64,000 bases of DNA from Helianthus annuus (lineage: Eukaryota; Streptophyta; Magnoliopsida; Asterales; Asteraceae), in NCBI RefSeq assembly GCF_002127325.2, contig NC_035436.2, forward strand, positions 114,020,088-114,084,087, read 5' to 3'. Shown here piece by piece: positions 926-64,000 of this stretch (position 1 is the stretch's first letter; every line of letters starts with the position of its first letter). The position numbers and the translations under genes are program-made. The notes beneath the pieces were generated by a model that saw nothing but the letters and a program-made list of their open reading frames with translations, had not been told where the DNA came from and made no database searches.

Positions 926-1146
926 CACGCCCCGTGCTCAGCCAGCACGGGGCCGTGCCCAAGAAGCAGCAGAAAAGACAAACCAGTAGAAGCTTCTATT
1001 GCCCACCACGGGGCCGTGCCCAGTGAACACGGGGGCGTGGCGAAAGTACTGCAGGCGCATTAATTGTAATTCCGAATTACAATTAATGAAGAGAGAGATT
1101 GTCAGACTGGCACGGGGTCGTGTGCAGTGGACACGGGGCCGTGCCC
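926..1146 (+). promoter_or_regulatory. Paired CACGGGGCCGTG-type palindromes in A1 U3
   Basis: Three pairs of a 11-12 bp near-palindrome (consensus CACGG, 1-2 central bases, CCGTG) start at 926/946, 1007/1028 and 1111/1132. The start-to-start distance is 20 or 21 bp. Between the second and third pair lies a separate perfect palindrome (1058-1088). The block lies just upstream of the TATA box at 1162. A role in transcription or silencing is inferred from position only. Confidence 0.7.
1058..1088. repeat. 31-bp perfect AT-rich palindrome in A1 U3
   Basis: Two 15-bp arms (CATTAATTGTAATTC and its reverse complement) flank a single base. The palindrome is conserved in the A2 5' LTR near 19253-19284 and, with one or two changes, in the A2 3' LTR near 11087-11117. 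It sits ~75 bp upstream of the TATA box between two GC palindrome pairs. Confidence 0.8.
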
Positions 1147-1161
1147 AGCCTTCTGTTCAGC

Positions 1162-1171
1162 CTATAAATAG
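1162..1171 (+). promoter_or_regulatory. TATA box of A1 LTR promoter
   Basis: CTATAAATAG is a near-consensus plant TATA box, conserved in all copies of the family: 4292-4301 on the + strand, and 11004-11013 and 19171-19180 on the - strand. Transcription would start about 30 bp downstream. Confidence 0.7.
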
Positions 1172-2377
1172 GAGTGCTTCGTTTCATTGCAACTCATCCC
1201 TTGGCACACCACCTCTCTCACACGTCATCCACCACCCACCACTATCACAACACCATCATCCACCACCATCATCCATTGTCCATCATAGAGTGTGTGAGTC
1301 ATCTCGGGATCCAAGATTGATCGTAAGAGTTCTTGACAATCAAGGCCATGTTTGCCTAAGTCTCTTACATCACTTGGTGAAGACAAGTGTTTAGTATAAC
1401 ACTTTTTATTTTTAATCTTTTACACTTTTTATTTGGTTTTGTATTAATGACTTTAATAACTAGTTACTTATGTTGAAGGTGATTCTTCCTTATCGTTTGT
1501 CTGTGGTGTCTTGGCATTATTTTACTGTCTATATAAAATAAAACATTTTCACCATTCATATCTCCACGGTCTATATGGAGGTATCTTGGCTACCTAGTCG
1601 GGGGGTTAAGGGAACGGTTTGGTAAGGGTCTTGCCCTTGTTCAGCGTTTAGAGGTCCTGCAAGGGACCTGGGTCAAATTTAATAGGATCTCCTTCATTGC
1701 CCATAGGTATTGGATGGTGGGGATCCAAACTCTTTGACCCCCTCATAAGTTAACTACTATTAATACTATAACCCGGCTATTTAGGACTGTATCCCTGCTG
1801 ACTCAGACTACTTAGTTGAGGGTAACGTCACCTCCAAAAGAGGGGCCTACCATAATTTGCATTAATAACTTAATTCATTATCTTTCAATAATCCGACCCT
1901 TTAGGATTGTATCCTTGCTGACTCAAACTACTGGGTTGAGGGTAACGTCGCCTTCAAAAGAGGGGCCTACTACAATAACTAAGATAATCTCTTAAACAAG
2001 TGCAAAAGTGCGAAAATAATCAAAGGTTATACTAATACACGAGTCGGATCCAAGTGATTCATCTTGTCTATGTGTTTTTTATTTTTATTTTACTTTTCAG
2101 CATTTAGTTAGTTTTTATTTTCTTAGTTTAAAAGTCTTTTCTAACATTTTGATTTGATTAGACGTTGAGGATAAACCGGTACTAAAAGCTCTTGTGTCCT
2201 TGGATGACCTCGGTATCTTACCAACACTATACTACGTTCACGATGGGTGCACTTACCCATATGTGTGTTTAGTGTTAGTGAATATCGTGTTTTATAAATT
2301 TAAAACTTGGCTAAAAGTGTAAAAAGGGCTTAAAATATACATCTAAAATATATATACACTGACACGCATCAAGTTTT

Positions 2378-2394: not shown

Positions 2395-2772
2395 ACACAA
2401 GGATTTTAAGAAAGTTAGGAATCAACGGCCTAATCATATTTTTATTTTTCTTTTTTATTTTGTAGGATTTTCTTAGTTTTTCAGCTTCTGCAGAGCTCAG
2501 CACGGGCCGTGCCTGGTCGGACACGGGCCATGCCCAGCATTGTTACTAGCAGTTTTTAGTTTTCCAAGTTACAGAAGGTTGAGCACGGGGCCGTGTCGGT
2601 GCAACACGGGGCCGTGTCCAACTCTCCAGTAACTGGGTTCTAGAAAACAATCACTGTAACTTCGACCACGGGCCGTGTTCACTGTGCACGGGGCCGTGGT
2701 GAACCTTCTGACCAGCATTCTTTTCTGTTTTTATTGCAGGACTTGGAACCAGACGCCACCCCTACGTAGTGT
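2395..2772 (+). other. A1 untranslated leader with palindrome pairs
   Basis: This is non-coding sequence between PBS and gag. It carries three further pairs of the CACGG-CCGTG palindrome, starting at 2501/2522, 2584/2605 and 2667/2687. The motif is therefore in transcribed leader RNA as well as in U3. Confidence 0.7.
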
Positions 2773-4218: not shown

Positions 4219-5500
4219 AAGAGAGAGATTGTCAGACTGGCACGGGGCCGTGTGCGGCGGACACGGGGTCGTGCCCAGCCTTCTGTTCAGCCTATAAATA
4301 GGAGTGCTTGGTTTCATTGCAACTCATCCCTTGGCACACCACCTCTCTCACACTTCATCCACCACCCACCACCATCACAACACCATCATCCACCACCATC
4401 ATCCATTGTCCATCATAGAGTGTGTGAGTCGTCTCGGGATCCAAGATTAATCGTAAAAGTTCTTGACAATCAAGGCCATGTTTGCCTAAGTCTCTTACAT
4501 CACTTGGTGAAGACAAGTGTTTAGTATAATACTTTTTATTTTTAATCTTTTGCACTTTTTATTTGGTTTTGTATTAATGACTTTAATAACTAGTTACTTA
4601 TGTTGAAGGTGATTCTTCCTTATCGTTTGTCCGTGGTGTCTTGGCATTATTTTATTGTCTATATAAAATAAAAGATTTTCACCATTCATATCTCCACGGT
4701 CTATATGGAGGTATGTTGGCTACCTGGTCGAGGGTTAAGGGAACGGTTTGGTAAGGGTCTTGCCCTTGTTCAGCGTTTAGAGGTCCTGCATGGGACCTGG
4801 GTCAAATTTAGTAGGATCTCCTTCAATGCCCATAGGTATTGGATGGCGGGGATCCAAACTCTTTGACCCCCTCATAAGTTAACTACTATTAATACTATAA
4901 CCCGGCTATTTAGGACTGTATCCCTACTGACTCAGACTACTTAGTCGAGGGTAACGTCACCTCCAAAAGAGGGGCCTACCATAATTTGCATTAATAACTT
5001 AATTCATTATTTTTCAATAATCCGACCCTTTAGGATTGTATCCTTGCTGACTCAAACTACTGGGTTGAGGGTAACGTCGCCTTCAAAAGAGGGGCCTACT
5101 ACAATAACTAAGATAATCTCTTAAACAAGTGCAAAAGTGCGAAAATAATCAAAGGTTATACTAATACACGAGTCGGATCCAAGTGATTCATCTTGTCTAT
5201 CTGTTTTTTATTTTTATTTCACTTTTCAGCATTTAGTTAGTTTTTGTTTTCTTAGTTTAAAAATCTTTTCTAACATTTTGATTTGATTAGACGTTGAGGA
5301 TAAACCGGTACTAAAAGCTCTTGTGTCCTTGGACGACCTCGGTATCTTACCAACACTATACTACGTTCACGATGGGTGCACTTGCCCATATGTGTGTTTA
5401 GTGTTAGTGAATATCGTGTTTTATAAATTTAAAACTTGGCTAAAAGTGTAAAAAGGGCTTAAAATATACATCTAAAATATATATACACTGACACGCATCA
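4219..5500 (+). repeat. A1 truncated LTR fused to gag
   Basis: This stretch matches 1089-2371 of the complete LTR, including TATA box, downstream region and terminal CATCA. The first ~412 bp (most of U3, two palindrome pairs and the AT palindrome) are gone. The junction lies in a short shared purine run (AAGAGAGAGATT in both parents), which suggests illegitimate recombination. Confidence 0.85.
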
Positions 5501-9866: not shown

Positions 9867-9867
9867 A

Positions 9868-11497
9868 CCAAGTTTTAAATTTATAAAACATGATATTCAC
9901 TAACACTAAACACACATATGGGCAAGTGCACCCATTGTGAACGTAGTATAGTGTTGGTAAGATACCGAGGTCGTCCAAGGACACAAGAGCTTTTAGTACC
10001 GGTTTATCCTCAACGTCTAATCAAATCAAAATGTTAGAAAAGATTTTTAATCTAAGAAAATAAAAACTAACTAAATGCTGAAAAGTAAAATAAAAATAAA
10101 AAACAGATAGACAAGATGAATCACTTGGATCCGACTCGTGTATTAGTATAACCTTTGATTATTTCGCACTTTTGCACTTGTTTAAGAGATTATCTTAGTT
10201 ATTGTAGTAGGCCCCTCTTTTGAAGGCGACGTTACCCTCAACCCAGTAGTTTGAGTCAGCAGGGATACAATCCTAAAGAGTCGGATTATTGAAAGATAAT
10301 GAATTAAGTTATTAATGCAAATTATGGTAGGCCCCTCTTTTGGAGGTAACGTTACCGTCGACTAAGTAGTCTGAGTCAGCAGGGATACAGTCCTAAATAG
10401 CCGGGTTATAGTATTAATAGTAGTTAACTTATGAGGGGGTCAAAGAGTTTGGATCCCCGCCATCCAATACCTATGGGCATTGAAGGAGATCCTACTAAAT
10501 TTGACCCAGGTCCCTTGCAGGACCTCTAAACGCTGAACAAGGGCAAGACCCTTACCAAACCGTTCCCTTAACCCCCGACCAGGTAGCCAACATACCTCCA
10601 TATAGACCGTGGAGATATGAATGGTGAAAATCTTTTATTTTATATAGACAGTAAAATAATGCCAAGACACCACGGACAAACGATAAGGAAGAATCACCTT
10701 CAACATAAGTAACTAGTTATTAAAGTCATTAATACAAAACCAAATAAAAGTGCAAAAGATTAAAAATAAAAAGTATTATACTAAACACTTGTCTTCACCA
10801 AGTGATGTAAGAGACTTAGGCAAACATGGCCTTGATTGTCAAGAACTCTTACGATCAATATTGGATCCCGAGATGACTCACACACTCTATGATGGACAAT
10901 GGATGATGGTGGTGGATGATGTTGTTATGATGGTGGTGGGTGGTGGATGAAGTGTGAGAGAGGTGGTGTGCCAAGGGATGAGTTGCAAGAAAACCAAGCA
11001 CTCCTATTTATAGGCTGAACAGAAGGCTGGGCACGGCCCCGTGTCCGCTGCACACGGCCCCGTGCCAGTCTGACAATCTCTCTCTTCGTTAATTGTAATC
11101 CGGAATTACAATTAATGCGCCCGCAGTACTTTCGCCACGCCCCCGTGTTCACTGGGCACGACCCCGTGGTAGGTAATAGAAGCTTCTACTGGTTTGTCTT
11201 TTTTGCTGCTTCTTGGGCACGGCCCCGTGCTGGCTGAGCACGGGGCGTGTTCAGTCTTCTGCCTTCTCTATTTTGCTTGGAGGATGCTGTCGAGGGGTCA
11301 GGCAATCCACTTATGTTCCTTTTCTTGTATTTATGTTAGATTTAGCTGTCTTTTTGCTTCTTTTGTTAGTTTGAGCTCATTTAATCCTGAAAATACAAAA
11401 GAAAGACAAAAACACTCTTTTCCAACATTAGTACTTAAAAAGGGTTAGTTTTATGCCTCATTTGATGTAATTTATATGTTGCATTTTACACACATCA
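9868..11497 (-). repeat. A2 3' LTR, missing its terminal ~60 bp
   Basis: The 1630 bp match the A1 LTR in reverse. The CATCA that is the reverse complement of the 5' TGATG lies at 11493-11497. The outer end, compared with 18001-18066, lacks about 65 bp including the CATCA terminus. The TATA box is at 11004-11013 on the - strand, with palindrome pairs and the AT palindrome upstream of it. Confidence 0.85.
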
Positions 11498-15470: not shown

Positions 15471-15670
15471 GCTGGACACGGCCCCGTGGGGACCGAGCAC
15501 GGCCCCGTGTTCAAGTGCCAGTAACGAAAATTAAAGAAAAGAAACAGAAGCCTGGACACGGGGGCGTGTCTGGTGAACACGGCCCGTGTCCAGTTACCTG
15601 AACTGGGCATTTTTCTGCAGGGGGTTCAGCACGGGGCCGTGTGGGCTGGGCACGGCCCGTGCTGAGCCTA
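15471..15670 (-). promoter_or_regulatory. Three palindrome pairs downstream of A2 ORFs
   Basis: CACGG-CCGTG palindromes start at 15477/15498, 15557/15578 and 15630/15651. Each pair is exactly 21 bp apart although the spacer sequence differs. This block lies 3' of the A2 ORFs, so the motif is not confined to promoters. Function unknown. Confidence 0.65.
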
Positions 15671-15987: not shown

Positions 15988-16419
15988 TCATATGTCGGTG
16001 AGCCACTCCTCCACCTCCCTTGGAAGGAGGAAAGAAGGCTCATTAGCGTTAGTTTGAGGAGTTGCGATTTCCACCGGGATCTCTTGTTGGTGCTCCATGG
16101 GAGGTTCCACCGGAAAGTCGTCCCACCCGGTAGTGTTGTTAACTTCGACTGCCAGGTTCCAATCCTGTTGAGGGAGGACTGGTTCCATTGGAGGTGCTAC
16201 AAGAATATTTAACCTCTGGTGCAAGAGGTTAATCTCTTGAAAGCTATTCTCGAGTCCCACCGTAAGATCGTTAATACGGTCGATTAGGACCTCCTCTACT
16301 GACGTCATTTCGTCGAGAGCCTCCCTTAATGCTATTACATAGTTTTGAATGGAGGGCCTTCTTCCTCTTCGGTTGTCTGATGAATGCACGGAAGATGTTT
16401 CGCTGTTTTCACTTGACAT
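15988..16419 (-). CDS. A2 ORF: small acidic coiled-coil protein, unknown
   Basis: About 143 residues from the ATG at 16419 (MSSENSE). The open frame extends upstream to 16494, but those codons overlap a palindrome pair, so the later start is preferred. It has a serine-rich N-terminus, a basic RRGRRPS patch, a predicted helical heptad region (ALREALDEM...LENSFQEINLLHQRLNIL), then a proline/glutamate-rich tail ending EVEEWLTDI. It matches no gag, pol or env motif I know. It lies between the gag-like ORF and the 3' end of the non-autonomous element, and could help in capsid assembly or be decaying. Not recognised. Confidence 0.5.
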   Translation of the reverse strand: MSSENSETSSVHSSDNRRGRRPSIQNYVIALREALDEMTSVEEVLIDRINDLTVGLENSFQEINLLHQRLNILVAPPMEPVLPQQDWNLAVEVNNTTGWDDFPVEPPMEHQQEIPVEIATPQTNANEPSFLLPREVEEWLTDI

Positions 16420-17166
16420 TCTACGGAAAATAAACTGAAAATAGTTTATTTGTTGAAACAATAAACCGGACACGGCCCCGTGCTCATTGAGCACGGCCCC
16501 GTGTTCATCTTTCTACAGAGTTTTGAAGCAAGGAAACTTGAGGTTTTAAGTTATTTTCTGAACTTGTGGGGTCTTTTTAAACATTAATAACTTAAAACCA
16601 TGTTATACAACATATTTTTACTAAGATTCCTTGAACAAAACTCATCAATCCCTACCACAAAGCTTGAAAAGTTCAAACTTTAATGGAGGTGCTTGGAGAA
16701 AGATGAAGAAGAAGGTAATGGCTAAAAGAGGAAAGGACAAGATGGGTTGTTGGAACCTTCTTTTAGAACTTACCTAGGATAGTTGAGAGAAGATTCCTTC
16801 AAATCTCTGTCCCAAGTTGGTCCAAGTGTGCAGAATTCTTGGCTGCATTTATAGAAAACGACAGCATTCTGGACACGGCCCCGTGTTCAGTGGGCACGGT
16901 CCCGTGTGCAGATGGAATTCTGACACAGTTTGTCCGTATTCTGACGTGAGGGTCAGAAGGGAATCTTTTGGTGGGCACGGGGGCGTGTTGGCTGTACACG
17001 GCCCCGTGTCGAGAGACTGTTTTATGAAGTTTGTCTAATTTTTAAGGAACTTACTAGTATCGGGTGGCTCCTGACTGGTTGGAACAACCCCAAAGTGCCT
17101 AAGATACCTTAATTGTCCTAGACTAAGTCGAGAACGCAAGAGGTTGTCGGTGAGGGTGATTCCTAT
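16420..17166 (-). other. A2 spacer between its two ORFs
   Basis: Non-coding DNA with three palindrome pairs starting at 16471/16492, 16874/16895 and 16976/16997, each 21 bp apart. A short ORF on either strand here owes its length to the GC-rich motifs and is not called. Confidence 0.55.
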
Positions 17167-17712
17167 TTACATTCTAGGTGGACAAGTCCAACCCTTTCCC
17201 GGGCTCTCGTTAAAGAAGGTATATGCCGAATCGCTCAGGTCTATGTATACACCGAACGAAGTCGATGGAGAGTCCTTCACGGCACAATCGACACAGGGAC
17301 GACTATTGTCTAAGTCTTTGCTAGGTATGAAGGTATTTTTGGAAGCAACGAGGTTGTTGGAATGCGATCCCAACATTTTTTCATGGTCTTCGTCTTGGGG
17401 AGGATCAATGAAATCCTTCCTAAGTTCTTTTGACCAATTTAAAATTAGCTCTTCTAGTTGAAATAACTCGTCAAGGAGCATTTCTCCTAGAATATCTGGC
17501 TGGGCGCATTCGAGGGAGAGATAGTGATTATTTTTACTTTCGCCCCTCTTAAGGTTATAAGGAGTCGGTGGGTCTATGTAGTGGGGCCTATAATTTAGAA
17601 AGTAACATTCTAATTCTTTATGTTTGCCTCCACATAATTGACACCACGTACCATAAGAGTGCCGAAAGTAATAAGAATTACCATCACTCATGTTTGTGTC
17701 AGAAATTACCAA
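17167..17712 (-). CDS. A2 gag-like ORF with zinc-knuckle motif
   Basis: 181 residues from 17712. A second candidate start (MSDGNSYY) is at 17691. Near the N-terminus it has CQLCGGKHKELEC, the same C-x2-C-x3-H-x4-C spacing and CGG-H core as the knuckle in A1's gag at 3663-3701. This suggests descent from the nucleic-acid-binding end of gag. The rest is acidic and leucine-rich (LDELFQLEELILNW) with no known domain, and the main gag core is absent. It lies ~270 bp downstream of the PBS, where gag should start. Either a minimal RNA-binding protein of a non-autonomous element or a relic. Confidence 0.55.
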   Translation of the reverse strand: MVISDTNMSDGNSYYFRHSYGTWCQLCGGKHKELECYFLNYRPHYIDPPTPYNLKRGESKNNHYLSLECAQPDILGEMLLDELFQLEELILNWSKELRKDFIDPPQDEDHEKMLGSHSNNLVASKNTFIPSKDLDNSRPCVDCAVKDSPSTSFGVYIDLSDSAYTFFNESPGKGWTCPPRM

Positions 17713-17977
17713 CCGTCGGGATCTAACGGTTCTGTTTTCAGTAAGTGAAACTTGGGCACGAGGGCGTGTTGGGTGAGCACGGCCCCTTGTTCAGCTTACT
17801 GTCTTACTTAAAACAAGATTGCCAGTTCCAATGATTGGGCACGGGGGCGTGTTCAGCAGGCACGGCCCGTGTTGAGCTCTGCAGAAGCTGAAAAACTAAG
17901 AAAATCCTAAAAAATAAAAAAGAAAAATAAAAATATGATTAGGCCGTTGATTCCTAACTTTCTTAAAATCCTCGTGT
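17713..17977 (-). other. A2 untranslated leader
   Basis: Leader between PBS and first ORF on the - strand. It holds two palindrome pairs starting at 17757/17778 and 17840/17861, again 21 bp apart. Its PBS-proximal end (17880-17977) matches A1's leader. Confidence 0.7.
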
Positions 17978-18000: not shown

Positions 18001-19666
18001 TGATGCGTGTCAGTGTATATATATTTTAGATGTATATTTTAAGCCCTTTTTACACTTTTAGCCAAGTTTTAAATTTATAAAACACGATATTCACTAACAC
18101 TAAACACACATATGGGCAAGTGCACCCATCGTGAACGTAGTATAGTGTTGGTAAGATACCGATGTCGTCCAAGGACACAAGAGCTTTTAGTACCGGTTTA
18201 TCCTCAACGTCTAATCAAATCAAAATGTTAGAAAAGATTTTTAAACTAAGAAAATAAAAACTAACTAAATGCTGAAAAGTAAAATAAAAATAAAAAAACA
18301 GATAGACAAGATGAATCACTTGGATCCGACTCGTGTATTAGTATAACCTTTGATTATTTTCGCACTTTTGCACTTGTTTAAGAGATTATCTTAGTTATTG
18401 TAGTTGGCCCCTCTTTTGAAGGCGACGTTACCCTCAACCCAGTAGTTTGAGTCAGCAAGGATACAATCCTAAAGGGTCGGATTATTGAAAGATAATGAAT
18501 TAAGTTATTAATGCAAATTATGGTAGGCTCCTCTTTTGGAGGTGACGTTACCCTCGACTAAGTGGTCTGAGTCAGCAGGGATACAGTCCTAAATAGCCGG
18601 GTTATAGTATTAATAGTAGTTAACTTATGAGGGGGTCAAAGAGTTTGGATCCCCGCCATCGAATACCTATGGGCATTGAAGGAGATCCTACTAAATTTGA
18701 CCCAGGTCCCTTGCAGGACCTCTAAACGCTGAACAAGGGCAAGACCAGGTAGCCAACATACCTCCATATAGACCGTGGAGATATGAATGGTGAAAATCTT
18801 TTATTTTATATAGACAGTAAAATAATGCCAAGACACCACAGACAAACGATAAGGAAGAATCACCTTCAACATAAGTAACTAGTTATTAAAGTCATTAATA
18901 CAAAACCAAATAAAAAGTGCAAAAGATTAAAAATAAAAAGTATTATACTAAACACTTGTCTTCACCAAGTGATGTAAGAGACTTACGCAAACATGGCCAT
19001 GATTGTCAAGAACTCTTACGATCAATCTTCAATCCCGAGACGACTCACACACTCTATGATGGACAATGGATGATGGTGGTGGATGATGGTGTTGTGATGG
19101 TGGTGGGTGGTGGATGAAGTGTGAGAGAGGTGGTGTGCCAAGGGATGAGTTGCAATGAAACCAAGCACTCCTATTTATAGGCTGAAAAGAAGGCTAGGCA
19201 CGGCCCCGTGTCCGCTGCACACGGCCCCGTGCCAGTCTGACAATCTCTCTCTTCATTAATTGTAATTCGGAATTACAATTAATGCGCCTGCAGTACTTTC
19301 GCCATGCCCCCGTGTTCACTGGGCACGGCCCCGTGGTGGGCAATAGAAGCTTCTACTGGTTTGTCTTTTCTGCTGCTTCTTGGGCACGGCCCCGTGCTGG
19401 CTGAGCACGGGGCGTGTTCAGTCTTCTGCCTTCTCTATTTTGCTTGGGAGGATGCTGTCGAGGGGTCAGGCAATCCACTTATGTTCCTTTTCTTGTATTT
19501 ATGTTAGATTTAGCTGTCTTTTTGCTTCTTTTGTTAATTTGAGCTCATTTAATTCTGAAAATACAAAAGAAAGACAAAAACACTCTTTTTCCAACATTAG
19601 TACTTAAAAAGGGTTAGTTTTATGCCTCATTTGATGTAATTTATATGTTGCATTTTATACACATCA
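18001..19666 (-). repeat. A2 5' LTR
   Basis: The 1666 bp run from TGATGCGTG at 18001 to CATCA at 19666, matching the A1 LTR in reverse. The TATA box is at 19171-19180. Palindrome pairs include one starting 19199/19220. The AT palindrome is near 19253-19284. CCCGT follows at 19667-19671. Confidence 0.9.
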
Positions 19667-21840: not shown

Positions 21841-21990
21841 GCTTACGGACCGTAAGCAAAATCTCTTGCGGTCCGTATCCACCCCTTGCGAACCGTAAGA
21901 ACAATTGGATGCGGTCCGTATCCAACTCTGAACTGAAACACCCAGTTAAGTCCTTGCGAACCGTAAGCTTAGGACCATACGGTCCGCATC
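21841..21990 (-). promoter_or_regulatory. Array of CTTACGGACCGTAAG-type palindromes in B U3
   Basis: The clearest copy is the perfect odd palindrome CTTACGG-A-CCGTAAG at 21842-21856. Six copies, full or half-decayed, centre at 21849, 21872, 21892, 21915, 21960 and 21983. Spacings are 23, 20, 23, 45 and 23 bp. The array lies 170-330 bp upstream of the TATA box. Confidence 0.7.
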
Positions 21991-22465: not shown

Positions 22466-23756
22466 ACATATTCTGTTTTTGTCTAATTTGGCAGCGGAAT
22501 TTACATCAGGACCGTAGTTAGGAAATATTTTATCAGAGTAAAATACCACACTTTCATAATATTAAACACCTGGGATAAAACCCAAGTTTTCAGTATATAC
22601 ATTTTCATAGGAATAAATCCTATTTTTATTTAGTAAAAATATCTATTTCTTTTAGGTAACTTTATTGCCACTTTTTCAAGCCTTCAGTGTTGTCCAGCTG
22701 GCTTCTAGTTGGCGTTCACATTTTGTTACCTGAAACGCGTTTAAAAACATTTTGTTAGTGGGAAATACTGGTGAGTGAATCCCAGTTCAATCAAGTTTTA
22801 ATAAAAACCATTGTACAGTATTGAGGGCGGTCTCGTAATTACATTTATTTCCAAGTCATACCAATTACTACCCACGGTACTGTCGTTCCGACTTATGGTC
22901 ATGTTACTCCTCCTCGCAAGACAGTAACAAATTTTGTATACAAAACCCCAAATTTACCGACTGTAATTGTATCCTTACAAATACTCAATAACTGTTTAAT
23001 ATATAATTAATTAAGTGAGGTTTTGTAAAAACAGTTTAAAAAGGAGATTACTCACATTGATGTCTTAGGTTTTCAGTAAGGTTTTCCTAGGAATAATCTA
23101 TACAAATGCACACGTGTTAGTATAATAACCCATTTTAACATTAGTAATACCCTCCCCGAAACGGCATTCCAACGACTACGTCAGGCAGAACCACGACAGC
23201 CGTTACGGAACCCTAGATCAATCGGGCAGAGTATCTAATACGTATCCAGGGGTTATGATACTTACAATGGAGTAGAACCTCGTTATTTATGGGGGTATTA
23301 TGCCCGAGTATAGTGCCTACTATAAGAAAATTGAGAGAGAAAGTCGAAATTTGAGCGACGTAAACTGAAGGCCCGATGCCCTCTTATATAGGGCCTGATT
23401 TTAAGCTCTACGCGGCCCGCGTAAAACAAGACCAGGGACTACGCGGCCCGCGTCAAAGGGAGTCAACGGCATAGCTGATCCGGGTCAGCATATAGGGTCG
23501 ATGGGTGTTGGGCCACGTGGCGGCCTGGGGTCGTGCCAGCCGTCACCTTCTCGCGGCCCGCGTAAGCTTAAGGGTTGGCTTACGCGGCCCGCCTCAAACC
23601 CAAAATTCCATTTTTAATTAATTTTAATAATAATTAAGGTATTCGGTGCCCGTTTTCACGTATGGGGTGTATTTTTGGACATATTTGGATATTTTAAATA
23701 TTTTTAGGGTGTCGGAAAATATTACGAGGGTGTCGGTTTACTTTAGGATTGTTATA
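22466..23756 (-). repeat. C 3' LTR, truncated by B insertion
   Basis: It matches 40210-41463 of the 5' LTR but lacks the terminal ~65-70 bp that include the GTTGCGACA end, because B inserted there. It carries a TATA box at 23381-23393 (- strand) and four copies of the ACGCGGCCCGCGT palindrome. The LTR start on the - strand is TATAACAA in both copies rather than the usual TG. Confidence 0.85.
23410..23594 (-). promoter_or_regulatory. ACGCGGCCCGCGT palindromes in C U3
   Basis: Four 13-bp odd palindromes start at 23410, 23441, 23551 and 23582, upstream of the TATA box at 23381-23393. They form two pairs with exactly 31 bp start to start. The 5' LTR has only three copies (41151, 41259, 41290); the last two are again 31 bp apart. 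Confidence 0.7.
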
Positions 23757-24558: not shown

Positions 24559-25398
24559 TGTGACATCTGTGTCACTTCAGCCATCAACCAAATACCAAAC
24601 CAATGAAATATTGTATTTCATACTTGGGATTTGTATAAATATGTGTATCGTTTGCACATATTGATTCTTGTTCGATTTCGGGCTCTAAATCACTTTCTGG
24701 AAGGTTATACGCAAACTGGTGCTTAAACGCAATCAGTTTAACGCGACGTACATTCCGGAACTGTGACGTAAGCCAAACATACCCTAAATATCCTTTACAT
24801 AACTTAGAAATAAGTTTTGAAGGATTCGGTATGGCAAAAACATGACTATTTGAATTAAAGAACTATTTACGACAAAACTAAGAAACGAACGTTGGTGCCC
24901 GCCCGGATAATATTTAAATCCAGAAGATATTCAGTTACGATTGAAATTTTATTTTTAATCAGGTTCATTTTGAAAAAAAAAATAAATTAAAACGCTTAAG
25001 AACGTTCTTTTCAAGTTTAAGCGCGTACCGCGTGTTTCTGCGCAACACAGTGCTTATACTGCAAAACGCGGACAACACAGCCAGCCTCAGCAACTGAAAT
25101 TTATTTCAGTAATATTTTGGCGAGTTTATTTTTATAGAAAAATAAAAATAATTTAGAACTCCATGAACCGAGATTTAAACGCTAGAAAAAAAAATACTCG
25201 GTACCCAGTTAAATACCTGTTTTTATTTAATTTACCAAACAAAATTTACATTTAACCCCTCCCATATGAATTTCGGTCACAAGGACCCACCAAGATCCCC
25301 AAAATATTTTGCCAAGATCTCTTAAGATTTGATTTGATATTCCTTGATTTCTTTTGATTTTCTTTAGATTTTACAAGATTTTATCTAGATTTTTTTTT

Positions 25399-25409
25399 CC
25401 TATAAGTAC
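25399..25409 (+). promoter_or_regulatory. Candidate TATA box of D LTR
   Basis: CCTATAAGTAC follows a T-rich run. It is preserved in the second LTR at 32119-32129. A GC-rich CGCGTACCGCG-like stretch lies ~370 bp upstream (25021-25075). Confidence 0.5.
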
Positions 25410-26999
25410 ACCCCTTATCTTCACAACCTCATTTGATCACTCCATCTTCCACTCTCTCTCCCTCTCCCAACCGTAAACACCACCATCACCTCCATCTCCA
25501 TTTTTGCAACTTTGTTCTTAAAGATTAAACCCCATTCCAAGCTAGTTTCAAGTTGGTATGAAAATCCAAAGGAGTTTCCAAGGTGATTTCCAGTGATTTC
25601 AAGCTCCATCTCATCAAAAACTCACTTGAATCTTGAAGGTATAAAGTTTATGTTTAAATCATATACTTTGTTCTTGATGGTTGGAAGTTTCTCTTGAATC
25701 TTGGAATTTTTCACTAAACTTGAAATCTAAAAGAAATGGGTCTTGAAACAAATAAAAATGGTGGTGATATATATGTATGTATAACCGTACATATATATAT
25801 ATGTGTGTGTGTGTGTGTATGTGTCTTGAAGTTCGATTTCTTGTTAAATACTTGTTTATGTTGTTACATGTTCTTGAATAATAGTTTAAATGCAAGTGAT
25901 TGTTGATCTATGTATGATATGTTAAATGCTTAAATACATCAGCAAATAAACCTGAATATATCATATATTTGATGCATTTAGATTAACAGAAAATGTTGAT
26001 GTTATGATAGTATGCTTTAGATACTTGTACATGTGAATATATGTTGATTTAAAGCTTAAAAAAAGTGATAAAAAATGGCTATATGAAAAAAATGTTTTAG
26101 ATCAGGTTACAAGCACTAAAAATGACCTTATTTGGTATATTATAAGGGCATGAAACTTTGACGTAGGTTTGGTAGCATTGCATGTTGTACATATAGCTTA
26201 AAAAGTGGTAAAATATGCGAAAGTTGCATGATTTATATGCTCTATTTAAGACCTGCACTTTTGTGAGTATAACCATTATTTTGTTCAGTAAATAACATGG
26301 GCTGTGTCAAAATTTCAAGTCATTTCGATTTGGGATGGTTCGGGCAACGTTTGATGCAAAACAATGTGGTGAAACGGTTAAAAATCGCCTTTTCGGAGGA
26401 TTTTTATTAAACTGTTTTTGATCAGTAACCAAACTGATATTTTTGATATAAAAACAAGTATTTTAACTTATACTAAGTTTACTTGGTGTTCGGTTAGTCA
26501 TACGTGACTTCCGACGCTCAAAAATGTTACCGAAACGCTAAAATAAGTGTTTTTCGACATAACCAAAATGGGTTATTCATGAGTAAATTTTATGTGTTAC
26601 AATGTGCTATGTGTTTTATAATATGTGTATGATGAGATGATGATACTTGACAATATTATTTGTTTTACGCTAGAGTACATATATGCGAATATACCAAAAT
26701 AATCAAAAATAATAACTTTTCGACGAATCTCAAAGTTATGTGAAAATTCTAAGTAATCGGAGAAACTTCGTCATTTTTATGAATTTTGTTTATTAAATCA
26801 TTCTTGTTTAATTTAGGACAAATAAATAATTTGAGGGATTGTGTTAGCATATAGAAACGCACCCAAAGGTGAGTACATAGACCCCTCTTTTACTGTTTTT
26901 TTAAACATTTTGGGGTGAAACACATGTGCCTACTTGTTACTTTCATGATTTCATGCTTTTATATCATATACTTGCTATGTTCATTAATACATTGTTTTA

Positions 27000-27350
27000 C
27001 ATGACATATTCATGCTATGTATGTTCATCATACTTAGTACATTGTTTTACATGACATCTTCATGCTATGTATGTTCATCATACTTAGTGCATTTATTTTA
27101 CATGACATCTTCATGCTATGTATGTTCATCATACTTAGTGCATTTATTTTACATGACATTTTCACGCTATGTATGTTCATCATACTTAGTGCATTTATTT
27201 TACATGACATTTTCACGCTATGTATGTTCATCATACTTAGTGCATTTATTTTACATGACATTTTCACGCTATGTATGTTCATCATACTTCGTGCGTTTAT
27301 TTTACATGACATTTTCACGCTATGTATGTTCATCATACTTAGTGCATTGT
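27000..27350 (+). repeat. 51-bp tandem repeat, seven copies, in D 5' LTR
   Basis: The GCTATGTATGTTCAT core begins at 27014, 27064, 27115, 27166, 27217, 27268 and 27319. Two subtypes differ by TTCATGC versus TTCACGC. The matching array in the 3' LTR (33720-33960) has five core copies, one unit being shortened. Confidence 0.9.
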
Positions 27351-32510: not shown

Positions 32511-32542
<32 letters not shown>

Positions 32543-37309: not shown

Positions 37310-37425
37310 AGAGATGAATTTTGTGGATCTAGATAGCTTATCTCCTTTAATTGTAATCTTTTCACCTTTTGGTGAATTTACTTGGATTGACTTTTGATCA
37401 CGTAAAATACTGGCCTTATTGGCTA

Positions 37426-40148: not shown

Positions 40149-41463
40149 TGTCGCAACCCCCGTCCCCCTATACAAGTACAAGAACGGGCGGCCGCGGCCA
40201 GTTTCGGTGGTATTCTATTTTTGTCTAATTTGGCAACAGAATTTACATCAGGACTGTAGTTAGGAAATATTTTATCAGAGTAAAATACCACACTTTCAAA
40301 ATATTTAACACATGGGATAAAACCCAAGTTTTCAGTACACACATTTTCATAGGAATAAATCCTATTTTTATTTAGTAAAAACATCTATTTGTTTTAGGTA
40401 ACTTTACTGCCACTTTTTCAAGCCTTCAGTGTTGTCCAGCTGGCTTCTAGTTGGCTTTCACATTTTGTTACCTGAAACGCGTTTAAAAACATTTTGTAAG
40501 TGGGAAATACTGGTGAGTGAATCCCAGTTCAATCAAGTTTTAATAAAAACCATTGTACAGTATTGAGGGCGGTCTCGCAATTACATTTGTTTCCAAGTCA
40601 TACCAATCACCACCCACGGTACTATCGTTCCGACTTATGGTCATGTTACTCCTCGCAAGGCAGTAACAAATTTTGTATACAAAACCCCAAATTTACCGAC
40701 TGTAATTGTATCCTTACAAATACTCAATAACTGTTTAATATATAATTAATTAAGTGAGGTTTTGTAAAAAACAGTTTAAAAAGGAGATTACTCACATTGC
40801 TGTCCTAGGTTTTCAGTAAGGATTTCCTAGGAATAATCTATACAAATGCACACGTGTTAGTATAATAACCCATTTTAACATTAGTAATACCCTCCCCGAG
40901 ACGGCATTCCAACGACTACGTCGGGCAGAACCACGACAGCTGATACGGAACCCTAGATCAATCGGGCAGAGTATCTAATACTTATCCAGGGGTTATGATA
41001 CTTACAACGGAGCAGAACCTCGTTATTTAGGGGGGGTATTATGCCTGAGTATAGTGCCTACTATAAGAAAATTGAGAGAGAAAGTCAAAATTTGAGCGAC
41101 GTAAATTGAAGGCCCGATGCCCTCTTATATAGGGCCTGATTTTGGGCTCTACGCGGCCCGCGTCAAAGGGGGTCAACGGCATAGCTGATCCGGGTCAGCA
41201 TAGGGTCGACGGGTGTTGGGCCACATGGCGGCCTGGGGTCGTGCCAGCCATCACCTTCTCGCGGCCCGCGTAAGCTTAAGGGGTGGCTTACGCGGCCCGC
41301 CTCAAACCCAAAATTCCATTTTTAATTAATTTTAATAATAATTAAGGTATTCGGTGCCCGTTTTCACGTATGGGTGTATTTTTGGACATATTAGGATATT
41401 TTAAATAATTTTAGGGTGTCAGAAAATATTACGAGGGTGTCGGTTTACTTTAGGGTTGTTATA
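40149..41463 (-). repeat. C 5' LTR
   Basis: 1315 bp; on the - strand TATAACAACC...GGTTGCGACA. TATA box at 41121-41133, three ACGCGGCCCGCGT-type palindromes upstream of it (41151, 41259, 41290). It has a full outer end that the 3' LTR has lost, but lacks one ~31 bp palindrome unit present in the 3' LTR. Confidence 0.85.
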
Positions 41464-42588: not shown

Positions 42589-43359
42589 TGTTGGTCCGAG
42601 TTTGGACTTAAAAACTTCTTTTCACATAATATGGCAAGTGATTTAAACAAATGTGAAAATAGTGTGCGGATATAGAAATCAGACTTTCAAGAAACAAGAC
42701 CTACAGAATTTTCAAGTTTATATCACTTTGAAACAAAATGGTTTACAAGGTGATTGTAAGATTATTATCTATTACAAATGAAGACTTGTGAATTCTGAGG
42801 TGAAAGGACAATGGAGTTTGTAGTATATATTGAATGCTAAGCTTAACTCATTTTCCTCTACTTGATGAGCCTTCTATTTATAGACGGTTTGGATACATGA
42901 ATAAACATTTGTTTGTTCATGTATATTCCCTGCAAAAAGTAGCTTCTTGACATATTCATTGAATCCAATAATCAAGTTGCCTTTGTCATCATGATATCCA
43001 ATAATGTCAAGTTGCTTTGGTTATTGTAGCAGGATAGAACTGATTTTTAGACAAGTGGGGTTTTATCAGAATTTCTGATAACCACTTCATCAGAAATTTT
43101 GGTGAACAAATCAATAGAAAATCTGATGATCAGAATTGTCAGAAACTGATGATATTTCAAATATCATCAAATCCATCAGAAAGACCTTCTCTGATAATCT
43201 TTTTCAGTTCTTGATCAACTTGTGATTCTTTGAAGTAGAATTTGTTCTTTTCAGTTGTCCTATCCGATCTTCTTCTTGTTGTATTGATCTTCAGGACTTT
43301 CTTCATAGATCATGCTGATTCTGATTTTCTTCAATACTTACAAATAAAGTTTCCTAACA
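42589..43359 (-). repeat. E 3' LTR
   Basis: 771 bp, TGTTGG...CCTAACA, highly similar to 51807-52570 with scattered substitutions and small indels. TATA box CTATTTATAG (- strand) at 42874-42883. U3 carries ATCAGAATTTCTGAT (43065-43079) and TCTGATGATCAGA (43122-43134) palindromes. The PPT (AAGGGGAAAC on the - strand) is at 43360-43370. Confidence 0.9.
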
Positions 43360-43394
43360 GTTTCCCCTTAAGTATTGTAAGAAAATGAACTATC

Positions 43395-48680: not shown

Positions 48681-49499
48681 TAAGGACCCTCAAGGTTGGT
48701 CCTCAGTCTAATATTGTGATAAGGATGGTGAGGAAGTGGGTATCGATCAGCATTGATGGTAAGCATGTTTGTGAGTATGAAGAAGAAGATGAAGTTGAAT
48801 TTTCTAGGGTTTCCTTAGGTGATAGTGACAGTCTTTGCTCAAGGTGATGATCATTTATAGTAAACTTGAAGTTTGCCATAAATGATATCTACCTACTTAT
48901 AGATTTTGTGTCATCACAATCTTTGTTATTTAATTTTCTATCAGATGGCATAAGGAATAACTGAGATAAACTCTCTTGCATTTAATGACTTAGGCGGCCA
49001 TTTTCTGATAATTCATGCTGATTACCTACCAATATGTCACTTCTATCTCCTTAATATTGATGAGGAGTAATGAATGAAGGAGAGAAAAGTTTAACTCCAT
49101 TAACGAGTTCCCAGAAAATTTTCTATCTATGACGTTATCAGCCCATAGAAAAAATGCAATATAAACTAACAAATAGGAATTAAAAAAAAAACGAAGAGGA
49201 AAAAAAAAACATCTACAATTATGATTATGTAAATGTGAGATATGAATAAAGATGGTGACATTCATGAATTTGTTCTGATAATCAATGATGATACTGATGT
49301 TTTAACAAGCTTTCTGATGTTTTATCAGAATTTCTAATGATTCATCAGATATTCTGATGATTTATCAAATTTTCTGATAATTCATCAGATTTTCTGATAA
49401 TTCATCAGATTTTCTGATGTTTCATAAGATTGATGATTTTCTTTATCGGAAAACTGTTGTTTCAGTTTTTGATTATCAGAATTCTTTGTTCCTTGATTA
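48681..49499 (-). other. E non-coding stretch with 20-bp palindromic repeat
   Basis: Includes poly-A tracts (49176-49210) and, at 49310-49420, a 20-bp tandem repeat whose unit pairs TCTGAT with ATCAGA. Confidence 0.6.
49310..49420. repeat. 20-bp tandem repeat of TCTGAT/ATCAGA
   Basis: TCTGAT (or TCTAAT) begins at 49313, 49333, 49353, 49373, 49393 and 49413, exactly 20 bp apart, each followed by ATCAGA-type sequence. The same palindrome words occur in E's U3. Confidence 0.85.
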
Positions 49500-51805: not shown

Positions 51806-51806
51806 T

Positions 51807-52570
51807 TGTTGGTCCTAGTTTGGACTTAAAAACTTCTTTTCACGTAATATGGCAAGTGATTTTCAACAAATGTGAAAATAGTGTGCGGAAATAGAAATCA
51901 GACTTTCAAGAAACAAGACCTATAGAATTTTCAAGTTTATATCACTTTGAAACAAAATGGTTTACAAGGTGATTGTAAGATTATTATCTATTACAAATGA
52001 ATACTTGTGAATTCTGAGGTGAAAGGACAATGGAGTTTGTAGTATGTATTGAATGCTAAGCTTAACTAATTTTCCTCTGCTTGATGAGCCTTCTATTTAT
52101 AGACGGCTTGGATACATGAATAAACAAATGTTTATTCATGTATATTCCCTGCAAAAAGTAGCTTCTTGACATATTCATTGAATCCAATAATCAAGTTGCC
52201 TTTGTCATCATGATATCCAATAATGCTAAGTTGCTTCGGTTATTGTAGCAGGATAGAACTGATTTTTAGACTAGGGGGGTTTTATCAGAATTTCTGATAA
52301 CCACTTCATCAGAAATTCTGGTGAACAAATCATCAGAAAATCTGATGATCAGAATTGTTAGAAACTGATGATCAGATCCATCAGAAAGACCTTCTCTGAT
52401 AATCTTCTTCAGTTCTTGATCAACTTATAATTCTTTAAAGTAGATTTTGTTCTTTTCAGTTGTCCTATCCGATCTTCTTCTTGTTGTATTGTTCTTCAGG
52501 ACTTTTATCTTCTTCATATATCATGCTGAATCTGATTTTCTTCAATACTTACAAATAAAGTTTCCTAACA
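51807..52570 (-). repeat. E 5' LTR
   Basis: 764 bp with TGTTGG...CCTAACA ends and a TATA box at 52093-52102 (- strand). U3 palindromes of the ATCAGAA-TTCTGAT type lie at about 52285-52360. The similarity to the 3' LTR with several indels points to moderate age. Confidence 0.9.
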
Positions 52571-53013
52571 GACACCTTTTTGATTCATGCATGAAACTAT
52601 CTTTCAAAATTCTCATCAATCAAGAATCAAATAAAATGAAAACACAAATATACACCTATATACATACATCCTACGGCTATACATACATATGTACACACTT
52701 CCATTTCACTTTGTTTAAAAACTCATTCATTATTAGTTTCAAGTTTGTTATTAATTCCAAGTTCAAGAGAAACCTTCCAACATCACTATCATCACCAAGA
52801 ATTAAGAACATGATTTTTGAAAATAAGTTTATACCTTTCAAGATTTTGGTGGGTTTTGACAAGATTTTTGATGTTTGGAGCTTGTTTCACCTTGAAAACA
52901 CCTTTGGATCTTCAAAACACCTTGAAACCTTCTTGAAATGAACTTAGATCTTCAAGCACATGATTGAAAAATGAAAATGGATGTTGTAAAGGGGGTGTTC
53001 GGCCATTGCTTTT

Positions 53014-53044
<31 letters not shown>

Positions 53045-55390: not shown

Positions 55391-55672
55391 TCGAGACAAG
55401 GTGGTCTCGACTCGAGAACATGCGGTCTCGAGTCGCAACCAGGAGGTCTCGACTTGTAATGGTTGGTCTCGAGTGGTGCAGGCATGACTCGTAACCCCGG
55501 AGATCTCGAGTCCCGTCTCGAGTTGTCACGATGTGGTCTCGAGTCGAGACCTTGATGGTCTCGAGTCCCTGAAGTCCGTTTTGAAGTTGCTTGGCCCAGG
55601 TCTCGAGTCGCAACCGTTGCGCTCTCGAGTTGCAGCTTCATGGTCTCGAGTCGCAACCGTTGGTCTCGAGTC
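55391..55672. promoter_or_regulatory. CTCGAGTCG palindrome array in F LTR
   Basis: TCTCGA starts at 55405, 55426, 55447, 55467, 55504, 55516, 55537, 55559, 55601, 55623, 55644 and 55664. Most steps are 20-22 bp or double that. The longest is the odd palindrome GTCTCGA-G-TCGAGAC near 55538. The array lies downstream of the candidate TATA box, so it would be transcribed; two more copies lie upstream. Confidence 0.75.
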
Positions 55673-56746
55673 GTTTACCTGCTGATTCTGATGCATCTGC
55701 CCGAATTGTACTATGCAACAGATTTCTGATTTCCTAAGGTTATGTACTATCCAATGATATCACACAAACATGTTCCCTTGTCTAACACTTAACCAAAATG
55801 GATCAAACAACAAGTTTTTCAAATATTTGCAACAACATTCAAACACATTCAACACATATTCATCATATGTTCATCATTTTAGGGTTTTCATAACTTGATT
55901 GTTCAACCAACACATTCGCTATGATTCACCGATTTATTCATGTGGACTTAGAAGCAAATCAATAAACCTTCAACACACCCAAACATGCATTTCACAAGCA
56001 ACAATCATGTAGCATTTGTTCTAAACACTATGACCCATAATATCAACATAAATAGGATGGTCCTAGACACTCTTTAAACTATCATTCTTTTGTCATTTTG
56101 AACATCTTAGCAAACATCATCATAGAATAGTTCACACACAATATCAAACTCACTAATCAAACAAACATCATACAAAGACCTCTAGACTAGACACGTTTCT
56201 TATTCATTAACACACCAAAGCCCTTAACACACATTAACACTAACCGGTTAATGAAAAGGCACCGAGTCAAGAAAGATGGTGAGAAGATGAAGTATCCGGG
56301 TGATGATGATGAGCTTGACCGATATTCCTTGTTGTTGCCGGTTGAATCCGAGAGAAAGGAGAGGAGAATGCTTGATTGTTTGGGTTCAAGGTTTTCTAGA
56401 GAGAGAGAGGGAGTGAGGATGAAGTGAGAGAGAGTGTAGAGGAGAGTGTGAGGGTTTTCGGGTATATGTATAAGGTGGTGCACCCTACGTGGGTTTCGAG
56501 TGGGCTAAGGGTGGTTGCGGCCCAACTGGCCCAACCGTTTACTGTTTACTCGAGACCGAGAATGGCCTCGAGTCGGGTTCGTGGTCTCGGTTCACTAGTA
56601 TTTATACATTTATATATATATTACATATACATACATAGCAAAAGGATCACATAGAACATCAAGGTAACACGCACTTTCATTTAATAACGTATATACACAC
56701 AATGTTAATACAAAAAGGGTTATTCGGGAAAACCTAGAGTGTCACA

Positions 56747-61242: not shown

Positions 61243-61450
61243 GTGTGGTTGCGCAGGTGCATGCTGACCTGTGGTGAGAAGCGAAGCGAATAGATTTAGG
61301 GGTAAGAGACGATGCGGCGGTAGGATCTAAACATCCTAGGATAACGAGTTTACCTCCAGGGTGAGCTGCGAAAGCTGCAGCCACCGTGTTAAGCAGGTTA
61401 GTGAATTGAGCCTGAGTCATGTTAATGTTTCCTCTTCCACATCCACTCAT
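61211..61450 (-). pseudogene. F gag N-terminus
   Basis: Starts at ATG 61450 (MSGCGRGNINMTQAQFTNLL). It runs ~80 codons in a frame different from the gag core, with a frameshift near 61235. The first residues look like a native start. Confidence 0.65.
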
Positions 61451-61744
61451 TGTCTTCATAATCAGAAAACATAGTATGAGTGTGATGTCGTAATGTAGCA
61501 AGAATGAGATAGAAGAGGGAGGTGTATCTATCTAACTAGGCGCACTAGTACGTATTGCAAAACAGAAGACATAAAGCAAGCAAGCAAGTAAACACTAGTC
61601 CGAGCTATGAGGTCTAATGTGTTGAGTCTTGCACTTGGAGTGTAGTGTCGTCACGAGTCACGGGCTATAGTCTGGTTTTTCTCAAAAAGATTTTTCCACT
61701 TTTTAAAACCAAATTCACTATAACCAATGGCTCTGATACCAATC
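61451..61744 (-). other. F leader and primer-binding site
   Basis: Leader upstream of gag. The PBS TTGGTATCAGAGCC (- strand) is at 61729-61742, two bases after the LTR end. Initiator tRNA-Met type. Confidence 0.85.
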
Positions 61745-64000
61745 TGTCACACCCACAAAATCCACCTGCGGAACACCACCGCTTGGGGGCGTGACTGACC
61801 AGGATCCAGCCACCAATTATACTGAGCAATTTAATTAATTACATAAGTAATACTCACCAACCACAAGGTTGGAAAATATCATAATCAAAGTTCAAAAGTG
61901 TTTAAGTTTAAGTAATAGTTCAAATAAGTAGCGGAAGCATAGACAAAATAGTTTAGAACAATATTCTTAGTTCAAGTTTGTTTAGAACCCAACACACGGG
62001 TTAGACGACCACTACACATCCGCAAGCTGCAAGCTCCTGAATCACCGGGTACCTGCAAAGCATGCAGTAAGGTGTCAACGTAAAGTTGAGCGAGTTCACT
62101 AGTTGTCCAGTTTTAGTTTTCGAAAACATAAGTTGTTTAGATAAAGCATTTATAATCACGTTGTGGGGAGCTACCCCATCCGTAAGCTCACTAAATTGTA
62201 GATACCGAAACTGTTGACGGAAAGTTATTGTGCCCCGAGTCAATGTCTATCGTCATTGACCAAGATGCAAGGTCTACTAGTTCACACCCGATCTCCCCCG
62301 GTCACGGTGTGAGGTTGTCAAACCTAATAGCGCTATCAACTAGTAACACGTTCGCCCCCGGCGATTAATCGGTACTGTAAGCAGGGACTTAAGGTGATAG
62401 AGTTTCGTTTAGCTTGGCTAGTTGTGATTTATATATAATATCCAAACGTATCTCCCCCGGAGATAGTAAATACCCATTCGGATTTCCCCCAGAAATAATA
62501 GTTCAAAAGTATTTTTCCCAAAGTTGGCAGTTTGTCCGTGTCCCTCCTTGGGACGCATGCTTTTAGTGTGTGAACTCACCTTGGGTTGCTCGACAGATTA
62601 GGTTACTTGTCAAACACGCTGGTCACCACGTCCTAACATGGTTACCAGTATAGGTCAGGTTTGGGTACAGAGAATGTCATGTATATTTTACACATAATCT
62701 ATCACATAGCATGCATACCGTTACATGTAGAGTTATTGGGACTGTTCTACTATTGGATCAGTCAACAGTATCAACTAACACATAGTTCAGTTAAACAGGC
62801 AGCCCAAACAAATCACGTTATGGCCCAACAACTAAAGTGAACAGCCCAGTCGAGACAAGGTGGTCTCGACTCGAGAACATGCGGTCTCGAGTCGCAACCA
62901 GGAGGTCTCGACTTGTAATGGTTGGTCTCGAGTGGTGCAGGCATGACTCGTAACCCCGGAGATCTCGAGTCCCGTCTCGAGTTGTCACGATGTGGTCTCG
63001 AGTCGAGACCTTGATGTTCTCGAGTCGAGACCTTGATGGTCTCGAGTCCCTGAAGTCCGTTTTGAAGTTGCTTGGCCCAGGTCTCGAGTCGCAACCGTTG
63101 CGGTCTCGAGTTGCAGCTTCATGGTCTTGAGTCGCAACCGTTGGTGTCGAGTCGTTTACCTGCTGATTCTGATGCATCTGCCTGAATTGTACTATGCAAC
63201 AGATTTCTGATTTCCTGAGGTTATGTACTATCCAATGATATCACACAAACATGTTCCCTTGTCTAACACTTAACCAAAATGGATCAAACAACAAGTTTTT
63301 CAAATATTTGCAACAACATTCAAACACATTCAACACATATTCATCATATGTTCATCATTTTAGGGTTTTCATAACTTGATTGTTCAACCAACACATTCGC
63401 TATGATTCACCGATTTATTCATGTGGACTTAGAAGCAAATCAATAAACCTTCAACACACCCAAACATGCATTTCACAAGCAACAATCATGTAGCATTTGT
63501 TCTAAACACTATGACCCATAATATCAACATATATCGGATGATCCTAGACACTCTTTAAACTATCATTCTTTTGTCATTTTGAACATCTTAGCAAACATCA
63601 TCATAGAATAGTTCACACACAATATCAAACTCACTAATCAAACAAACATCATACAAAGACCTCTAGACTAGACATGTTTCTTATTCATTAACACACCAAA
63701 GCCCTTAACACACATTAACACTAACTGGTTGATGAAAAGGCACCGAGTCAAGGAAGATAGTGAGAAGATGAAGTATCCGGGTGATGATGATGAGCTTGAC
63801 CGAGATTCCTTGTTGTTGCCGGTTGAATCCGAGAGAAAGAAGAGGAGAATGCTTGATTGTTTGGGTTTAAGGTTTTCTAGAGAGAGAGGGAGTGAGGATG
63901 AAGTGAGAGAGAGTGTAGAGGAGAGTGTGAGGGTTTTCGGGTATATGTATAAGGTGGTGCACCCTAAATGGGTTTCAAGTGGGCTAAGGGAGGTTGCGGC
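61745..64000 (-). repeat. F 5' LTR, cut by window end
   Basis: Matches 54286-56530 closely. The CTCGAG array (62848-63155) has one extra ~22-bp unit compared with the 3' LTR. Confidence 0.85.

Follow-up and report, generated by a model that had tools for sequence, protein, structure and literature searches.

Sireviruses, which are retrotransposons of the Ty1/copia type, are the closest described counterpart of the elements considered here. In 13 Sireviruses, palindromic repeated motifs lie upstream of the TATA box of the long terminal repeat (LTR), and in 12 of the 13 the motif has a CGG-CCG core (PMC2829016). The motif is present in at least eight copies per element, its clusters form CpG islands, and the linker contains extra copies, nearly all of which lie upstream of ENV where ENV exists; it was termed Sirevirus specific relative to other Ty1/copia elements (PMC2829016). 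The same authors proposed the involvement of several nuclear factors, naming no single one, and of an internal promoter that could not be conclusively identified (PMC2829016). In maize, Sirevirus LTR palindromes are described as cis-regulatory, hairpin-forming hot spots of small RNAs (as cited in PMC10760457 and PMC5311732). This report concerns comparable palindrome arrays in a 64-kb stretch of Helianthus annuus DNA (contig NC_035436.2, positions 114,020,088 to 114,084,087), hereafter the window, from which all site, spacing and TATA statistics are drawn. The window is AT-rich and consists, by self-BLAST, of nested LTR retrotransposons, here designated families A to F. The initial annotation knew of no description of such palindromes as a general feature, yet Bousios et al. 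2010 (PMC2829016) had already reported palindromic repeats upstream of TATA. The general feature is already known; what is new is its extension to Ty3-type elements, the constant gap separating paired sites and the constant spacing from TATA.

The palindromes are a real, non-chance feature of the window, and the arrays probably bind a plant nuclear protein, dimeric and sequence-specific, that would activate the element promoter, the proximal site in A, C and E lying at about 26 bp from TATA. The initial annotation had described five unrelated families (A, B, C, E and F) with odd-centred palindromes of different sequence. The motifs hold up, but the odd centre, the unrelatedness and the description of F do not. 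A CGG-N(1-2)-CCG core links A, where 27 of the 39 exact sites have it, with B (four of six sites) and C (all seven), so these three are not unrelated motifs; the CGG-CCG core is absent from E and F sites. As to the families, B is related to D through two LTR pieces flanking the E and C insertions, which match the LTR of D at 64.6% and 66.9% across roughly 1 kb, and the C and F interiors have pol similarity in common by self-BLAST. The array-bearing B piece gave no match to the D LTR, and the LTRs of A, C, E and F showed no mutual similarity by self-BLAST (E 1e-5, at least 60 nt). An odd centre was rejected as a common feature: 31 of the 39 exact A sites are even-centred 12-mers, and window-wide inverted repeats with arms of at least 6 are more enriched over shuffles at spacers 5 (60 vs 19) and 6 (55 vs 19) than at spacer 1 (49 vs 25). 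The spacer 5 and 6 repeats, at about three times the shuffle expectation, are scattered across the window.

Sites in family A are organized in pairs. A scan allowing at most one mismatch in the CACG/CGTG arms returned 60 sites, comprising 42 sites in 21 pairs and 18 scattered one-mismatch matches; all 39 exact-arm sites are paired, three of the pairs being completed by one-mismatch partners. A gap of 9 bp separates the facing arms in 20 of the 21 pairs, and a gap of 10 bp in the remaining one, for sites of either 11 or 12 bp, and the spacing of 20.5-21 bp agrees with the 21 bp first given. Removal of seven LTR duplicates leaves 14 pairs, two of them possibly positional homologues of two others. 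The 13 N9 linkers have a mean identity of only 0.46, and the flanks are also unlike. Because the gap is fixed while linkers and flanks vary, the layout is as would be expected of a geometric constraint and not of simple tandem-unit copying. Distances between pairs within A arrays range from 52.5 to 83 bp and show modest phasing (Rayleigh p about 0.011, the observations not all being independent). The helical-turn phasing claimed for all families is clear at 10.5 bp in A (R 0.99) and F (R 0.72, p 0.003), whereas in B (R 0.73, p 0.07), C (R 0.34, p 0.71) and E (two steps only) it is weak or the steps are too few to assess; all steps pooled, minus the within-pair steps of A, give R 0.47 (p 0.0014).

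The plus-strand A LTR (677..2371; 1695 bp, TGATG...CATCA; Ty3-type; delimited by self-BLAST and LTR ends) carries in its unique 3' region (U3) three pairs at 926..1143 (926-957, 1007-1039 and 1111-1143), each with a 9-bp gap. Three further pairs, one of them the pair with a 10-bp gap, follow the primer-binding site (PBS) at 2501..2698 (+), and three more lie near a polypurine-tract-like sequence at 15477..15661 (-). In the minus-strand A element, pairs are found at 19199, 19303 and 19385 in the 5' LTR (18001..19666) and at 11032, 11136 and 11218 in the 3' LTR (9868..11497), the end of which is truncated; a shortened A LTR copy occupies 4219-5500. Between two of the CACG pairs in U3 lies a 31-bp palindrome with 15-bp arms (1058-1088; 19254-19284), centred 90 bp upstream of TATA. 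When the two A elements are compared (2501 vs 17861), similarity ends abruptly at the first palindrome after the PBS; palindromes persist beyond this point and the rest differs, suggesting possible template switching at palindromes. Long hairpins across the two members of a pair were considered and rejected, as no consistent complementarity was seen by eye from the site centres. A search of viral contigs with the A-pair pattern gave one match, in contig L001 (58% GC; 4305-4337), where two 12-bp palindromes, CACGGCGCCGTG, stand 21 bp apart with a 9-bp gap in an operator-like arrangement. By source collection and composition L001 is probably a prokaryotic virus, and presumably unrelated to plants.

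The arrays of the other families differ in layout. In the minus-strand B LTR fragment (TATA at 21666), six TTRCGGWCCGTAA-like sites at 21843..21989 form three pairs 23 bp apart; the reported steps of 23, 20, 23, 45 and 23 are reproduced when 0-3 mismatches to TTACGG-N-CCGTAA are allowed. The C 3' LTR (22469..23756, -; TATATA at 23390) has four ACGCGGGCCGCGT-like sites at 23410, 23441, 23551 and 23582, two exact and two with one mismatch, making two pairs 31 bp apart as first described if up to one mismatch is accepted. The C 5' LTR (40211..41463, -; TATA at 41131) has three; compared with 23410-23594, its stretch at 41151-41302 is missing one 31-bp palindrome-to-palindrome unit, a single fused site being left. 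In the E 5' LTR (51807..52571, -; 3' LTR at 42589..43360, -, by self-BLAST), ATCAGAA-T-TTCTGAT at 52285 is exact and is followed at 24-bp steps by one-mismatch sites at 52309 and 52333; the internal E array, a 20-bp tandem of the same motif class (49294..49431, -), is also present as annotated. Family F, a minus-strand element with Ty3 pol, has its 3' LTR end at about 54286 and a 5' LTR extending past the window. Steps of 20-22 bp are indeed common in its array (55395..55675, -), which is made up mainly of direct ACTCGAGACC-like decamers, some inverted, rather than of palindromes; the complete 13-bp palindrome has two occurrences in one LTR copy and three in the other. Three F-type sites in the upstream part of the F LTR (56548..56592, -) have 2, 1 and 0 mismatches, and a fourth (one mismatch) lies at 56501. 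The clusters of A, B, C and E lie upstream of the LTR TATA box, as had been noted.

Palindrome density was compared with shuffles, as the initial annotation had proposed, by counting palindromes (arms of at least 5, spacer 0-2) in 16 regions against 300 dinucleotide shuffles, with uncorrected p values. The U3 regions of A (5 vs 1.2, p 0.013), C (6 vs 1.3, p 0.007) and E (6 vs 2.1, p 0.023) are enriched. No significant excess was found in B (5 vs 2.5, p 0.116), the F array (3 vs 1.2, p 0.126) or the upstream part of F (1 vs 0.8, p 0.54), and the D U3 lies below its shuffle mean (10 vs 16.4, p 0.97). D, a sixth LTR family that lacks an array, is a counter-example. In a separate count of the most repeated word, made on one strand so that symmetry gains no advantage (30 shuffles per region), the top word falls within the named motif in the U3 of A, B and C, in the E U3 when 12-mers are counted, and in a stretch of F chosen around its array (55380-56000); the top 10-mer of E is another word, and that of B reaches the shuffle maximum and no more.

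The proximal palindrome has a recurrent position relative to the TATA box, distances being counted from the palindrome centre to the first T of the box. In the A LTR promoter (1132..1168, +), the palindrome at 1132-1143 is centred 25.5 bp upstream of TATAAA at 1163, and the LTR copy at 4219 keeps this distance with one broken pair in the site. The last C palindrome in the direction of the element lies 26.0 bp upstream of TATA in both LTRs; the palindrome remaining in the 5' LTR holds this distance from the TATA at 41131 despite the missing 31-bp unit. In E, a 32-bp palindrome (52112..52143, -; 15-bp arms, spacer 2) is centred 26.5 bp upstream of TATAAA at 52101; at the same -26.5 position of the 3' LTR it is reduced to 5-bp arms. 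With the internal A promoter described below, four of six promoters (A LTR, A internal, C and E, but not B or D) have a palindrome centred 25.5-26.5 bp upstream of TATA. Circular shifting of all palindromes over the six promoters places four in a 1-bp window with p 0.0002 (0.0005 with another seed). Window-wide, 11 palindrome centres fall 25-27 bp upstream of the 246 TATAWA sites, where the mean over bins is 4.0 (this bin ranks fourth of 186), and for 42 stricter TATA sites the count is 8, compared with a mean of 0.9; LTR copies are counted apart in these figures, and the stricter patterns were picked after the promoters had been seen.

The A motif recurs at a candidate internal promoter of the minus-strand element (16848..17008), where pairs at 16976-17008 and 16874-16906 precede TATAAA at 16853 and the last palindrome is centred 26.5 bp upstream of it. 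After the pairs, the minus strand reads TATAAATG at 16853, a donor-like CTAG/GTAAGT, an acceptor-like CCGTAG and the ATG of a 143-aa open reading frame (ORF; 15991..16419, -), which thus lies after a putative splice acceptor and downstream of the internal TATA; a further A pair (16471..16503, -) falls in the putative intron. This order of signals suggests transcription from the internal TATA and splicing of a small gene. A 207-codon open frame (17170..17790, -; first Met at 17691) lies downstream of pairs at 17757-17789 and 17840-17871. The 143-aa ORF has 39 homologues and the 207-codon frame 19 (queried from one residue past the first Met), the only named organisms being Helianthus annuus and H. 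anomalus. In an alignment of nine sequences, the window copy and 8 of the 39 homologues of the 143-aa ORF, the start and central region are kept; neither small ORF has a Pfam match. Descent of the internal promoter from the LTR promoter was also considered. Because the two A promoters fail to align downstream of the palindrome (local score 16 vs shuffle mean 16.3), the internal promoter does not appear to be an obvious copy of the A LTR promoter.

From these sites, pairs, distances and chance tests we infer protein binding and activation at the arrays. A dimeric plant nuclear protein would bind each array and switch on the element promoter; in A, two dimers would sit adjacent at a separation of about two helical turns. 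The proximal palindrome of A, C and E would be kept about 26 bp upstream of TATA so that the bound factor could reach the initiation complex, and in A the sites would also act at the internal promoter driving the small spliced gene. Element lineages would exchange one site sequence for another, retaining symmetry and distance. Of the two possibilities raised by the initial annotation, sites for proteins of differing specificity are the better supported, because the pair gap is fixed with variable linkers, the TATA distance is fixed and the A motif recurs at another promoter; the arrays can be explained without invoking recognition by symmetry alone. CAMTA, NAC, TCP, ARF and MYB proteins were considered as host factors by consensus site only, and none is claimed.

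Several observations weigh against this interpretation. The 26-bp rule is post hoc and comes from one 64-kb window; leaving out the internal A promoter, which has the same motif as the A LTR, reduces the count to three of five promoters (p about 0.01). Neither B nor D has a palindrome at -26 among all palindromes within 120 bp of TATA, F has no clear TATA, and the named arrays of B and E sit 183 and 190 bp upstream of theirs. Three of the 11 window-wide matches at -25 to -27 are AT-rich antisense stretches of D and B, which are non-promoter sequence. A coding control, element G, has 18 palindromes vs 10.9 (p 0.023), matching the enrichment of U3, and the rest of the F LTR reaches p 0.050; the remaining seven of nine control regions give p 0.08 to 1.0. 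Reduced CpG decay within motifs was dropped as support: CpG loss is 2 of 37 inside motifs vs 38 of 233 outside (D counted outside), a protective direction that is not significant (p 0.13), and the mask favours intact sites. A broader form of the rule would have plant LTR promoters of both superfamilies carry a dyad-symmetric site of any sequence 26 ±1 bp upstream of TATA, symmetry and distance being selected and the sequence, and so the host protein, being freely exchanged between lineages. We regard this broader form as doubtful; it is weakened because only three of five promoters conform once the internal one is removed.

The main rival to protein binding holds that the palindromes act as RNA, with U3 and internal transcripts forming hairpins from which small RNAs would be made and silencing would follow, a model put forward for maize Sireviruses. 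All five array stretches fold better than shuffles (z -3.8 in A, -3.2 in C, -3.3 in B, -3.7 in E and -5.2 in F), and an excess of small RNAs over Sirevirus palindrome clusters is cited in PMC10760457. However, any palindrome-rich array folds well, and therefore the z-scores do not discriminate between the RNA and binding models; silencing also leaves the TATA distance, the 9-bp gap and the retention of the arrays unexplained, and maize Ty3 elements are generally without an obvious peak of such structures, according to PMC10760457. Hairpin formation is unlikely to be the principal role of the arrays, although it may coexist with promoter sites as a side effect.

Rather less likely is that the arrays are a by-product of copying, in which slippage or template switching multiplied a single palindrome of chance origin and the spacing is simply the unit length. 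The internal array of E is a genuine tandem repeat of 20 bp, the C 5' LTR is short of one palindrome-to-palindrome unit, and two A copies stop matching at a palindrome, so the sites do take part in rearrangement. Yet the A flanks and linkers are dissimilar though the gap is fixed, and the TATA distance agrees among LTRs without detectable similarity. Copying plays a part in array turnover, since the C 5' LTR loses a unit yet keeps its -26 site. VANC proteins of VANDAL elements are element-encoded anti-silencing proteins, and the recurrence of the A motif at several separate places in the same element, together with two ORFs in the minus-strand A element whose named homologues are in Helianthus only, would suit anti-silencing sites for a VANC-like protein. 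Such a role is very improbable: the lack of a Pfam match in either ORF counts against it, and the fixed TATA distance favours promoter action.

The remaining features bear on the classification of the elements. The A gag has profile matches to Retrotrans_gag and Ty3_capsid and, across 97% of the query, has 92% identity with a protein of Helianthus annuus, which stands far ahead among the best 120 of 619 matches, with many plants represented. Family A looks Athila-like by its gag type, and the PBS sequence after the A LTR looks typical of Athila. Inside C, reverse transcriptase (36698-37450) precedes integrase (35161-35967), which is the Ty3 order; from the nesting, this pol probably belongs to C. 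The gag of E is of the Ty1/copia type with a zinc knuckle, and no reverse transcriptase was found among the 14 open frames between its LTRs that have at least 90 codons. A 494-aa open frame (43398-44879, -) upstream of the E 3' LTR has no Pfam match. The D LTRs (5' LTR at 24559..28550, +, with no array; second copy at 31278-35158) contain a 51-bp tandem repeat (26995-27359; 33708-33967) that differs in copy number between them. At 5500-5501, the end of an A LTR adjoins a minus-strand Ty3 pol fragment (5440-9137) from another element, a junction produced by nesting or rearrangement. No Rfam family matches the palindrome arrays at the gathering threshold; the sole match in the window is to snoR71 (RF00097; 3264-3370, -), antisense in the A gag at 41.1 bits vs a cut-off of 40, and reflects either a snoRNA-like stretch carried by a retrotransposon or transposon sequence built into the family model.

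In the literature, judged mostly by title or abstract and with subscription papers largely outside, no paper was recognised that describes such palindromes in Ty3 elements, a constant gap in pairs or the 26-bp rule; the one paper found for palindromes ahead of TATA in plant LTR retrotransposons was PMC2829016. A search for the motif words across 5.39 million papers matched nine, and none of the seven listed concerns retrotransposons by its title. The most interesting part is the fixed TATA distance together with the internal promoter, neither of which appears in the initial annotation. A loose pattern is replaced by an exact geometry open to testing: paired sites separated by 9 bp, and a palindrome 26 bp from TATA. 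If it holds across genomes, the distance rule would be a simple finder of LTR and internal promoters, and would help in studying how retrotransposons acquire a new host activator and leave the promoter otherwise intact.

The likeness to Sireviruses lies in the CGG-CCG palindromes of A, B and C, in the clusters that A, B, C and E have upstream of the LTR TATA box, and in an extra A cluster upstream of a downstream gene (PMC2829016). Copies per element are six sites per complete U3 plus internal pairs in A, six in the B fragment, and four and three per LTR in C. The A pairs lie upstream of two ORFs, neither shown to be ENV-like, and E has its internal array. The observed/expected CpG ratio is 0.77-1.25 in the A, B, C and F arrays vs 0.68 in the window; the rest of the C LTR has 0.95, and E 0.00. 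In contrast to Sireviruses, A and C (C by nesting) have Ty3-type proteins, and the E and F sites are without the CGG-CCG core. The fixed pair gap and the 26-bp TATA distance seen here were not found in the available text of the Sirevirus account (PMC2829016), and a candidate internal TATA is present in A, whereas none was conclusively identified in Sireviruses (PMC2829016). With the maize Sirevirus hot spots the window shares palindrome-rich LTRs able to form hairpins, here in Ty3 families (PMC10760457, PMC5311732). Box I and BII of the Tnt1 LTR are likewise symmetric, repeated activator sites in U3 (box I symmetry from PMC2829016). LTR enhancer boxes of the Tnt1 type bind nuclear factors and drive transcription. 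Grande, by the title given in PMC11963269, is a Ty3 element with an extra gene and an internal promoter; A differs in being Athila-like and in having palindrome pairs at its internal promoter. By their sequences, A and C look to carry beyond Sireviruses, into Ty3-type elements, a motif that had been described as specific to one group of Ty1/copia retrotransposons.

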